This document shows, in pieces, positions 48,274-52,313 of a DNA stretch of 64,000 nt. The notes under the pieces are model-generated. The model searched no databases, had not been told where the DNA came from, and saw only the letters and a program-made list of their open reading frames with translations. The position numbers and the translations under genes are program-made. Each line of letters begins with the position of its first letter. Within the stretch, counting starts at the first letter, position 1. The stretch is from Pseudaquidulcibacter saccharophilus. Lineage in GTDB: Bacteria > Pseudomonadota > Alphaproteobacteria > Caulobacterales > Aquidulcibacteraceae. The stretch lies in the NCBI RefSeq assembly GCF_019455445.1, contig NZ_JAHWUS010000001.1, positions 558,001 through 622,000 on the forward strand, written 5' to 3'.

Positions 48274-49341
48274 TTAAACGCCGACGTAAATCGTATCAGG
48301 ATTATAATCAGGGTCTTTTTTACGGTTTTCCTGAAGTTGGTCAAACATATCCCAAACACCGCCTTGACCGCCCCATTCGCCTTTGGTTGCGCCTTTTGAA
48401 TATTCAGTTGCGCGCGCTTCAAAGAAGTTGGCATGTTCAACACCGTTCAAAAGTGGCACTAGCCAAGGAATTGGGTGCTCTTTTACGCCGTAATAGGTTG
48501 GCAAGCCAAGCTGATCAAGGCGCCAATCGGCAATATAGCGAATATATTGTTTGATGTCCTGGGCTTCCATCCCTTGAACAGGGCCCATTTCAAATGCAAG
48601 GTCGATAAATTTATCTTCAAGGCCAACCGTGGTTTTGCACATATCCATAATGTCATCTTTGATGGATTGATTAAGCTTTCCGGTTTCGCGCGCGAACTGG
48701 TGGAACATTTTAATCATGCCTTCGCAGTGAAGTGATTCATCACGTACTGACCAAGAAACAATTTGTCCCATGCCTTTCATTTTGTTGAAACGTGGGAAGT
48801 TCATCAACATTGCGAATGATGCAAACAATTGAAGACCTTCGGTAAACGCGCCAAACATTGCCACGGTGCGAAGAATATCTTCATCAGTGCCAACGCCGAA
48901 TGTTTGCATATAATCGTGTTTGTCGCGCATTTCTTTATATTCAAGGAATGCGGTGAATTCAGTGTCTGGCATACCAACGGTTTCAAGCAAAAGCGCATAA
49001 GCGGCAATGTGAATGGTTTCCATATTGGAAAATGCCGAAAGCATCATTTTAATTTCGGTTGGGCGGAACACATGGGCGTATCTGTCCATGTAATTATCGT
49101 TCACCTCAACATCTGATTGGGTAAAGAAACGGAAGATTTGCGTTAGCAAATTACGTTCTTGATCCGAAAGGCGGGTTGCCCAATCTTTACAATCTTCGCC
49201 CAATGGCACTTCTTCTGGCAGCCAGTGAACCTGCTGCTGCTTCTTCCAAAAATCATACGCCCAAGGATAACGGAACGGCTTATAGGCATAAGAAGGTGTT
49301 AAGAGACCGACTTTGCTTAATTTTGGATTTATAATAGACAT
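48274..49341 (-). CDS. nrdB: class Ia ribonucleotide reductase beta subunit
   Basis: A 355-residue diiron radical subunit. Metal and radical residues are visible: NMETIHIAAYALLLE carries a ligand Glu, His and the radical Tyr; FTEGLQLFASFA and SVRDESLHCEGM supply the other ligands. The C-terminal tail (DYNPDTIYVGV) would dock on the alpha subunit. Unusually it is not beside nrdA, which lies 3.1 kb away on the same strand with other genes between. Two NrdR boxes 32 bp apart precede it. Confidence 0.96.
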   Translation of the reverse strand: MSIINPKLSKVGLLTPSYAYKPFRYPWAYDFWKKQQQVHWLPEEVPLGEDCKDWATRLSDQERNLLTQIFRFFTQSDVEVNDNYMDRYAHVFRPTEIKMMLSAFSNMETIHIAAYALLLETVGMPDTEFTAFLEYKEMRDKHDYMQTFGVGTDEDILRTVAMFGAFTEGLQLFASFAMLMNFPRFNKMKGMGQIVSWSVRDESLHCEGMIKMFHQFARETGKLNQSIKDDIMDMCKTTVGLEDKFIDLAFEMGPVQGMEAQDIKQYIRYIADWRLDQLGLPTYYGVKEHPIPWLVPLLNGVEHANFFEARATEYSKGATKGEWGGQGGVWDMFDQLQENRKKDPDYNPDTIYVGV

Positions 49342-49499: not shown

Positions 49500-50285
49500 A
49501 TGCTCAAAATAAACGTAAATCGTCGTGTTATTGCGACTTCAATTTTTGCCTCCAGCCCGCTTTTCATGGGGTCGAATTCATTTGCCCGCGACAAAATGCA
49601 ACAGGATAAAATCATCCTTGGGGCAGGAACCCCAACAATAGTTTTAATTCATGGTTTGGGTAGTGATATTTCATCATTCAAGAAAATCATCAAACCGCTT
49701 TCCGAGCTTTCGCAAGTAGTTGCTTTTAACCGCAAAGGTTATGGTGGTGTAAAATTTGATGGGCAACCGCGTGGCGCAAGCAATATAGTGCGCGAATTGC
49801 ACGAACAATTATCAGCAAATGGAATTAAACCGCCATATATTTTGGTTGGTCACTCATTGGGTGGCAGTTTTGCCCGACATTTTGCCTTAAGCTATCGTGA
49901 TGAAGTGGCGGGAATGGTTTTGATTGATCCATCGATTCCTTATCAATCAAAAACCCTTAGTGAAATTGCGCCCAAAGATTTTGCAGTCTTTAAAAAAATA
50001 ATCAAACTAGGATCTCCTGCGGTGCGTGATGAGTTTTATCATAGCGATTTTAACGATGACCCCGTGATGAAGTATGAACCATTCCATTTGGATAAAACCA
50101 TAATCCTTGCCGCCGATAATGTTGGTAAAATGCAAAATGCCGATGAATATCTTGCCATAAGGCATTCCGCGATGCGGCAGATGGTGAATGATTTTGGCGG
50201 TAAGGTGGAAATCGTGCATTCAGGGCATTTCATTCAGAACGAACATCCTGAAATAGTGGTTAATGCGGTTAAATCGCTCTTGTAA
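49500..50285 (+). CDS. exported alpha/beta hydrolase
   Basis: A 261-residue hydrolase with an N-terminal export signal (NRRVIATSIFASSPLFMGSN, cleavage near SFA|RD at about 31). Core features are TIVLIHGLGSD (oxyanion region), VVAFNRKGYGG, the nucleophile elbow LVGHSLGGSFARH, acid in ILAADNVG or nearby and His in IVHSGHFIQNEHP. Substrate unknown. A hairpin after the stop (50313) separates it from the following tandem genes. Confidence 0.88.
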   Translation: MLKINVNRRVIATSIFASSPLFMGSNSFARDKMQQDKIILGAGTPTIVLIHGLGSDISSFKKIIKPLSELSQVVAFNRKGYGGVKFDGQPRGASNIVRELHEQLSANGIKPPYILVGHSLGGSFARHFALSYRDEVAGMVLIDPSIPYQSKTLSEIAPKDFAVFKKIIKLGSPAVRDEFYHSDFNDDPVMKYEPFHLDKTIILAADNVGKMQNADEYLAIRHSAMRQMVNDFGGKVEIVHSGHFIQNEHPEIVVNAVKSLL

Positions 50286-50312: not shown

Positions 50313-50338
50313 GTGTTGCACTGCGGCACTATTTTTTG
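50313..50338 (+). terminator. probable terminator after exported hydrolase
   Basis: GTGTTGC (50313-50319) pairs with GCGGCAC (50323-50329) using two G-U pairs, loop ACT, followed by TATTTTTTG. Confidence 0.55.
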
Positions 50339-50393: not shown

Positions 50394-51113
50394 ATGAAAA
50401 AATCGCAAATATTCGTAAAGCGCGTCTGGCAAGGCGTTTTTGCCCTTATAACGATTTGCTTTCTGTGGTGCTTTATAAATCTTTCAATTCTCGCATTTTC
50501 TTGGCTAAAGTCATATTCGATGACGGTTGATAACACGCCGCAAACTTATTATGCCGATATACGTCATGATAAAGGCCAAGTTGGCAAAACCCTTATTATT
50601 TCAGCAATAAAGGCGCAACCAGATAAAAAAGTTTGGTTTGGGCATATTTGGGTGGTGTGGGATAAAGCCCCGCCACATGCCCATGGTGAAAAAGAGGCCG
50701 GTTTTTATGCGGCATCAAAATCACAAGCGGCACGCGCCTTAATCCTATCCATTATATCGCCATCAGCACTTATTACAGGGCAAAAGCCAATTGCCGGCGT
50801 TATGCGCAATGATGAAGGGCTTTATCGCCATTGGCAGTTGGTCTTGCGGGTCGATAATGCCCAATATGCCCGCGCGCTTTTGGTGGATGATAAATGGAGA
50901 AACCAAAATCAATATTTATTGCGCCCATCAATAAGTGGTAAAACCATAACTTGCCGCGATTATGTTTTTGAGGTTGCACAGGCGGTTGGCCTAAAAGTAA
51001 AGCAAAATGATTGGGATAAATTCCCACCCGAATCATTTGCCGAATTGGTAAAGTTAAACAATATCGAAACCCCAAATCGGGTTTATTCTTACCTTGCAAT
51101 GCGTAATCCATAG
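50394..51113 (+). CDS. membrane-anchored protein, tandem paralog 1, possible thiol hydrolase
   Basis: About 239 residues from ATG 50394 (GGGA upstream; in-frame ATGs at 50349 and 50367 are possible but add residues before the anchor). A basic n-region and one membrane helix (about 12-36) are followed by an extracytoplasmic domain. Blocks shared with the next gene are TYYADIRHDKG, KVWFGHIWVVWD, ITCRDYVFEVAQAVGLK and DKFPPESFAELVKLN. A conserved His before a conserved Cys at a helix start resembles circularly permuted NlpC/P60 (LRAT/YiiX-like) enzymes. I do not recognise the family, and this fold idea is inference. Confidence 0.72.
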   Translation: MKKSQIFVKRVWQGVFALITICFLWCFINLSILAFSWLKSYSMTVDNTPQTYYADIRHDKGQVGKTLIISAIKAQPDKKVWFGHIWVVWDKAPPHAHGEKEAGFYAASKSQAARALILSIISPSALITGQKPIAGVMRNDEGLYRHWQLVLRVDNAQYARALLVDDKWRNQNQYLLRPSISGKTITCRDYVFEVAQAVGLKVKQNDWDKFPPESFAELVKLNNIETPNRVYSYLAMRNP

Positions 51114-51185
51114 TTGGTATTATTTGGAGGGTGGGATTTATTTTTAAATCCAATATGCTAATCATTGCGCCAAAAGGGGCAAGAT

Positions 51186-51884
51186 TTGGCAAAAGCAAAA
51201 GCAAGTATTTTAACAAAACTTATATTTGTTTGTGGCCTTTGGGTTTTGATAAATATATTTGCCATTATTTTTATTTGGTCAAAATCATATTTTGTTGATT
51301 ATGGCGCAATTCCCGCCACTTATTATCTTGATAAAAGAAGCGACCATTCAAAGCCTGGGCATATAATTACCATTGTCGCCACCCATGCTGAGCCTTCAAA
51401 ATATTGGTTTTTTGGGCATATGTGGGTGGCCTTTGACACCACGCCCCCTAATGAACCAATGGGAACCCATCAATATGGCTATTATTCCCAAAATAAGGAA
51501 AAGGCCGCTATCGAATTGGTGAAATCTATATTTAACCCAGTGGGATTTTATTTTGGTCAAACCCCGGTTAAAGGGCAGATTCAGATTGACGACCCGTGGC
51601 GCCACCATCTTGAATTAAAAATACAGGTTAATGATGATGTCTATCAATCGGCAATTGCCGAACATGAAAAATGGCGCACACAAGAGGTTTATATTAACCG
51701 CCCCAAATGGGGTGGTAAATCCTATGCTTGTCAGGATTATGTTTATGGGATTGCAGGCGCAATTGGATTAAAAACCCCAAAAACAAGTTTTGGCGAATTT
51801 CCCCCCGAAAGCTTCGTAAAATTTGCCGCGCTTAATGGTGTTGATGTTGTGCATCGCCCAAGCATTAAAAACCTATTGAAATAA
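51186..51884 (+). CDS. membrane-anchored protein, tandem paralog 2, possible thiol hydrolase
   Basis: About 232 residues. No ATG lies before the membrane helix, so it must start at TTG; TTG 51186 has AAGGGG six bases upstream, while TTG 51165 does not. The layout repeats paralog 1: helix (about 9-32), TYYLDKRSDHS, YWFFGHMWVAFD, YACQDYVYGIAGAIGLK and GEFPPESFVKFAALN. The candidate His and Cys are retained in both copies. A small hairpin (arms GGATTTA and TAAATCC, 51134-51151) lies just upstream and may affect translation. Function unknown. Confidence 0.72.
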   Translation: MAKAKASILTKLIFVCGLWVLINIFAIIFIWSKSYFVDYGAIPATYYLDKRSDHSKPGHIITIVATHAEPSKYWFFGHMWVAFDTTPPNEPMGTHQYGYYSQNKEKAAIELVKSIFNPVGFYFGQTPVKGQIQIDDPWRHHLELKIQVNDDVYQSAIAEHEKWRTQEVYINRPKWGGKSYACQDYVYGIAGAIGLKTPKTSFGEFPPESFVKFAALNGVDVVHRPSIKNLLK

Positions 51885-52313
51885 TTATTCCCATTTAAGG
51901 AATTTGTGCCAACTTGGATATGGATCCCAAATACGCTCCAATAGTTCGCGTGCCTTTGCTTCTTCCCAACCTAAGACGTCGCGGTGATAACGGTAAAGAA
52001 ATGCACTAGACCTAAAATTAAACCTGTCATGAATGTGGATTTTTTCGCCCTTAAGGGTTTCAAGAACGCCGCAGAATTCTTCGAAATTTTCTTCTGTTGG
52101 ATTATCATATTTAACAAAAATATGGATATAATCCATGCCATGGCCCATGATGGTTGCAACTTTTTCTGCTAAATCATCACTCATACTAAGGTCAACAATA
52201 TGACCAATACCCATGTCCGCCAGACGTTTAATATTATCATTTTTTAGCATTCCGGACGTGGTTATATAATCATCAATCCGTAGCCAGTTATAAATTTCAA
52301 TTGGCTCAGCCAT
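51885..52313 (-). CDS. tyrosine-phosphatase-like protein (DUF442 type) with Asp for catalytic Cys
   Basis: A 142-residue protein resembling the small cysteine-phosphatase-like family with the pattern IYNWLRIDDYITTSG, ADMGIGHIVDLSM, MDYIHIFVKYDNPTEENFEEF. At the signature loop, where relatives read HC-x4-R (for example HCAANxRVSAF), this protein has HDRFNFRSSAFLYRY: the Arg is kept but the nucleophilic Cys is Asp. It is therefore probably not a phosphatase by the usual mechanism and may act as a phospho-binding or scaffold protein. It is convergent with the tandem paralogs. Confidence 0.72.
   Translation of the reverse strand: MAEPIEIYNWLRIDDYITTSGMLKNDNIKRLADMGIGHIVDLSMSDDLAEKVATIMGHGMDYIHIFVKYDNPTEENFEEFCGVLETLKGEKIHIHDRFNFRSSAFLYRYHRDVLGWEEAKARELLERIWDPYPSWHKFLKWE

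Follow-up and report, generated by a model that had tools for sequence, protein, structure and literature searches.

Circularly permuted enzymes of the NlpC/P60 type have a published core of five strands and, after these, two helices and one short helix, and they use a catalytic set consisting of a His, a third polar residue, a Tyr, and a Cys (His49, Glu64, Tyr115, and Cys128 in YiiX); the S1 pocket of the permuted members is hydrophobic, and a fatty acid is bound in YiiX (PMC3142127). Phospholipase activity has been shown for Tox-Act1, which cleaves PG and PE, and for TseH, and lipoproteins are N-acylated by DUF4105/Lnb (PMC12994826). The tandem genes analyzed here, located in a 64,000-nucleotide stretch of the Pseudaquidulcibacter saccharophilus genome (the window), on balance probably represent an undescribed, lineage-restricted family of this permuted papain-like (NlpC/P60) superfamily, the members of which would be membrane-tethered, acyl-Cys enzymes acting on lipids or acylated molecules. 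The assignment of the two proteins to the permuted fold is strong, while the substrate, by analogy with the characterized relatives, is probably a lipid or lipid-modified molecule as opposed to a wall peptide.

Paralog A (50394-51113, forward strand) is an ORF for 239 amino acids, a membrane helix followed by the permuted papain-like domain, and paralog B (51186-51884, forward strand) encodes 232 amino acids from a TTG at 51186, within an ORF that is open from 51165. The TTG at 51186 is most likely the start codon of B, as opposed to the TTG at 51165 in the ORF list, because AAAGGGG occurs just upstream and the orthologs in L005 and L006 begin at the matching residue. The two proteins are 38% identical across 213 amino acids (E = 1e-55), which agrees with the tandem paralogs at 50394-51884 proposed in an earlier, sequence-only reading of this DNA, and no third copy was found in the genome. 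The ordered motif blocks listed in that reading are present in both A and B, but the block around the Cys reads C-x-DYV-x(3)-A-x-A-x-GLK and several parts vary in the wider family, where D-x-R, GH-x-W, C-x-DY, and FP are invariant and TYY, the D after FGHxWVx, and the second P/ESF are variable.

An alignment of 15 family members (A1, with residues numbered as in B counted from 51165) contains a single invariant His (H85) and a single invariant Cys (C189), along with an invariant Tyr (Y176) and a Glu or Gln at position 103 in all 15 rows. The retention of His and Cys by the duplicated copies, noted previously, extends to both paralogs and all 15 members, and the third, polar residue and the Tyr, which the earlier reading had not named, are conserved as well. 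Based on the alignment, the four positions are His84, Glu101, Tyr174, and Cys187 in A and His85, Gln103, Tyr176, and Cys189 in B, with the latter numbered from 51165. The codons of the putative catalytic His are at 50643-50645 in A (FGHIW) and 51417-51419 in B (FGHMW), each an invariant column at the start of a strand, and those of the putative nucleophile are at 50952-50954 in A (C-R-DYV) and 51729-51731 in B (C-Q-DYV), each an invariant column at the first residue of a helix; all four are on the forward strand. These four conserved positions are the active-site positions of the permuted NlpC/P60 enzymes, in the same order, and the spacing of 13 between Y176 and C189 is the same as that between Tyr115 and Cys128 of YiiX (PMC3142127).

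Both proteins contain one strong membrane segment, located at the N-terminus (Kyte-Doolittle 2.5 and 2.9 for A and B, respectively), and hydropathy identified no second segment in either, consistent with the one membrane helix per protein described from the sequence. Three to four Lys/Arg and zero acidic residues occur ahead of this segment and, because only basic charges precede it, the positive-inside rule makes an N-in/C-out orientation likely, with the domain on the periplasmic side.

AlphaFold models constructed from a six-sequence alignment (pLDDT 85.7 and pTM 0.83 for A; pLDDT 86.8 and pTM 0.83 for B) place the His in an early strand and the Cys at the start of a helix, as had been anticipated: strand 84-89 begins at His84 and helix 187-197 at Cys187 in A, and strand 85-90 begins at His85 and helix 189-199 at Cys189 in B. 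Secondary structure assigned with DSSP follows one order in both models, with a first half composed of the membrane helix, an extra strand, a strand, the strand with the His, the strand with the Glu/Gln, and a helical insert, and a second half composed of two strands, a helix, a short strand with the Tyr, the Cys-helix, and a short helix. Once the membrane helix, extra strand, and helical insert are set aside, the remaining elements follow the order of the published permuted core (PMC3142127), in a comparison of order and not of superposition. A and B thus have the same four kinds of catalytic residue, in the same order, as YaeF/YiiX (Peptidase_C92) and the LRAT-like enzymes, as well as the same order of core elements, and differ from them in an extra helical segment (111-130), the N-terminal membrane helix, and the lack of a Pfam or significant Foldseek match. 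The proposed structural comparison with YiiX, LRAT, and NlpC/P60 showed agreement in core element order, and in a Foldseek search neither model had a match at E 0.001 or better against the PDB and viral structures. The top PDB match for B was CLN5, described in the literature as a Cys-based depalmitoylase and also as a BMP synthase, though the match is weak (E 0.12, TM 0.27) and ranks 34 for A. CLN5, a picornavirus polyprotein, and A0A7G8AMR8 (Foldseek probabilities of 0.33, 0.85, and 0.96, respectively) are suggestive at most, and the fold assignment does not rest on them.

Searched against Pfam at E values up to 10, A, B, and the 15 members returned at most two weak transmembrane models, and the families that remained unmatched include YiiX (Peptidase_C92), LRAT, PPPDE (C97), NLPC_P60, Lnb_N, TseH, and DUF3750. 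A and B had no match in NCBIfam, PHROGs, or PADLOC, the two proteins and the family profile A1 had none among PDB sequences, and no relatives were found on viral contigs. The absence of relevant Pfam, NCBIfam, and PHROGs matches is in line with the earlier description of the family as undescribed. The A1 profile did match a secreted NCVHFV-motif protein that belongs to a different family within the class (E = 1.3e-6), and the relatives of this protein (alignments A3 and A6; L082-L085, L090-L092, and L094) constitute a bridge family of apparently secreted, signal-peptide-bearing NC-x-x-F proteins with the pattern FPHAF ... YxLxxRNCIxFV, in which His, Tyr, and Cys are invariant. Comparison of A1 and A3 with hhalign resulted in a probability of 93, an E value of 3e-7, and a score of 52.2 over 130 columns, where 200 column shuffles reached 27.5 at most. 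In reverse, a search of the genome that carries A with the A3 profile recovered A (E = 8.8e-5), and a local search with this profile scored A, and B more weakly. In the PDB, the bridge profile has a single significant match, the cysteine hydrolase 6v98 (E = 3.2e-5), with the Tyr and Cys aligned. We take 6v98 to be the T6SS effector TseH (Pfam TseH). Seeding a profile search with the family, as the sequence-only reading had suggested, has thus provided a two-way link to the NC-x-x-F proteins and onward to 6v98. It should be noted that the link to a known permuted member takes two steps, from A1 to the bridge family (E = 3e-7) and from there to 6v98 (E = 3.2e-5), and that the homology reaches significance chiefly in the C-terminal half, which contains the Tyr and Cys, with the His half assigned from invariance, residue spacing, and the order of the strands.

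The bridge family shares with A and B the 130 homologous columns, the invariant His, Tyr, and Cys, a P-x-x-L segment, and a VDD/ISD-x-x-Y...W helix, but is apparently secreted through a signal peptide instead of anchored, has NC-x-x-F in place of C-x-DY, has N, S, or A at the third position, and has a shorter loop between strands 3 and 4. One of its members matches PPPDE (E = 5e-5), below the Pfam cut-off. The bridge proteins, which occur in several families of the class and match no Pfam model above cut-off, are interpreted as a second undescribed permuted NlpC/P60-like family. Two further proteins with the pattern GH-x-F-I ... NC-x-x-F (L086 and L087) have a weak match to a bridge protein (E about 3e-4) and are probably additional permuted NlpC/P60 enzymes. 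The late position of the Cys in the chain of 6v98 is that of a permuted NlpC/P60 enzyme; A and B differ from 6v98 in being anchored to the membrane and in lacking a secretion-system context, and are linked to it through the bridge family alone, with no direct match. A merged profile (A5), in which MAFFT had misaligned the His of the bridge rows, returned only chance matches in the PDB and was discarded. DUF3750 (PF12570), a papain-like family (PMC10318531), was considered as a parent family, as its N-terminus is hydrophobic and its HTWI and PGPNSNTF blocks align by eye with the motifs of A and B and are ordered as these are. This was rejected, as the hhalign comparison was not significant (P 0.13) and no copy occurred in the 61 relatives searched, and DUF3750, which has a Ser in place of the Cys, is a possible distant cousin of the family.

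Several other explanations of the same observations were weighed. Conserved His and Cys residues could be structural elements of an unrelated alpha+beta fold, and the lack of a significant Foldseek match would be compatible with this, but the two-way profile homology to the NC-x-x-F proteins and onward to 6v98, together with an element order that fits the permuted core in two models, makes this highly improbable. Those profile links, the element order, and the four conserved positions all back the permuted papain-fold reading made from the sequence. It is very unlikely that A and B have this fold as catalytically dead relatives serving as membrane-bound binding or scaffold proteins; pseudoenzymes such as DUF1175 are known in the superfamily (PMC10318531), yet every catalytic position is kept in all members and both paralogs, and dN/dS is 0.04-0.13.

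Among the catalytic alternatives, the Cys could belong to a cell-wall peptidase or amidase that cuts the stem peptides of peptidoglycan, or some other peptide bond in the periplasm, and is kept near the wall by its anchor. Canonical NlpC/P60 enzymes do cut wall peptides (PMC10318531) and the predicted periplasmic location would suit such a role, but this activity is a property of the unpermuted enzymes, while the permuted ones that have been characterized target lipids or acyl groups or, in the case of PPPDE, ubiquitin/SUMO. Further, Pfam identified no peptidoglycan-binding domain in A, B, or the members, and no cell-wall genes adjoin the pair, leaving a wall peptidase as an unlikely assignment, though the least improbable of the alternatives. 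A lipoprotein-modifying acyltransferase, which would add or move an acyl chain on lipoproteins, has a precedent in Lnb (DUF4105), a permuted relative that does so (PMC12994826), and one bridge member has a weak match to Lnb_N, but at E 0.048 this match is not significant. The genome also encodes a full apolipoprotein N-acyltransferase, Lnt (238 bits against a cut-off of 132.9, E = 1.1e-70), which therefore covers standard N-acylation, makes a standard Lnb role for A and B unlikely, and rules out A and B as replacements for Lnt; overall, an Lnb-like acyltransferase is a doubtful assignment.

Acyl-enzyme chemistry of the Cys on lipids or acylated molecules is favored over cleavage of wall peptides because of the hydrophobic S1 pocket and lipid activity of the permuted relatives and the membrane anchor. 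Under the preferred assignment to membrane-tethered permuted enzymes, the N-terminal helix would anchor A and B in the inner membrane with the domain facing the periplasm, and the fold would start with the beta-sheet, with the His on the second core strand, the Glu/Gln on the third, and the Tyr preceding the helix opened by the Cys. The His, oriented by the Glu/Gln, would activate the Cys, which would attack an acyl ester, thioester, or amide at the surface of the membrane, with the Tyr helping to hold the carbonyl oxygen, and the resulting acyl-enzyme would be hydrolyzed or its acyl group transferred to an acceptor. The substrate is probably a phospholipid or other acylated molecule, as for other permuted members. 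DUF4105/Lnb and Tox-Act1 are comparable to this proposal as permuted NlpC/P60 enzymes that have extracytoplasmic acyl chains as their targets (PMC12994826), though A and B have no significant sequence match to either.

The family is lineage-restricted. Homologs occur in 15 of the 60 genomes searched from the same taxonomic family, representing 4 of 14 genera, and the 15 homolog-bearing genomes in an order-level sample (n = 299) are all inside that taxonomic family. In the class sample (n = 385), the A1 profile had a match in its own genome only, and no full-length homolog was found outside the taxonomic family in the order, class, or phylum samples. Among close orthologs, dN/dS values of 0.04-0.13 (0.044 for A and its G097 ortholog) point to strong purifying selection on the A and B genes. 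This selection and the retention of the tandem pair with its upstream hydrolase in two other, congeneric MAGs argue that the pair is not a product of chance. On a phylogenetic tree, the B copies of three species cluster together (support 99/99) and the A copies cluster with the single copy of G038 with weaker support (93/96), and since the two sets of copies cluster separately, the duplication appears to predate the species compared. The locus in G097 is without a B copy.

The secreted hydrolase that A and B had been said to follow is directly upstream of A, as an alpha/beta hydrolase (49500-50285, forward strand; Abhydrolase_1, E = 1.5e-16) with a GHSLGG nucleophile elbow and a signal-peptide-like N-terminus. 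Four genomes of the genus have this hydrolase ahead of A, with orthologs in L005, L006, and L058. A terminator-like hairpin on the forward strand (50313-50329), just past the hydrolase stop codon and ahead of A, may separate the two transcriptionally; the region contains 13 such hairpins compared to 3.6 in shuffled sequences. Between positions 48274 and 54355 of the window, the family genes are flanked by nrdB and nrdA, the genes of a class I ribonucleotide reductase (identified with Pfam), and lie on the strand opposite to both, and this position is kept across two genera (g1 and g2) in the surroundings that were read (L057, L058, L061, L063, and L066). The companion genes beside the family gene differ, and include the alpha/beta hydrolase, MsrA, a GNAT acetyltransferase, and a phosphatase-like protein. 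A functional tie to ribonucleotide reductase was rejected, as the family genes are on the opposite strand and their products are membrane or periplasmic proteins, and a conserved locus of shared ancestry is the simpler account. Immediately after B, on the reverse strand (51885-52313, and also at L058 6489-6914), is a gene for a 142 amino acid protein with no Pfam match at 0.001 that by eye looks like a dual-specificity phosphatase with HDRFNFRSS in place of HC-x5-R, and is possibly a degenerate phosphatase. Two tandem secreted proteins with the look, by eye, of ricin-type lectin repeats are beside nrdB in the congeneric MAGs (L005 445-2167 and L006 210-1716).

A and B are probably not an entirely new kind of protein, since their conserved parts fit an established group of cysteine enzymes, most of which act on fats, and the pair would form a new branch of this group. 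The analysis adds two unclassified families, that of A and B and the bridge family, to a superfamily with roles in bacterial lipid and lipoprotein biology that are only now emerging. The family is stably maintained (dN/dS about 0.05) in few genera, its orthologs are easy to find due to their location, mostly between the ribonucleotide reductase genes, and the tetrad defines the exact residues to test. More tentatively, A and B could belong to a class of inner-membrane-anchored permuted NlpC/P60 enzymes that remodel the acyl chains of periplasm-facing lipids or lipoproteins, in which the two paralogs differ in substrate and partner with the secreted hydrolase. If true, this would be an undescribed class of phospholipase or acyltransferase in the Alphaproteobacteria, with A and B duplicated for different substrates.
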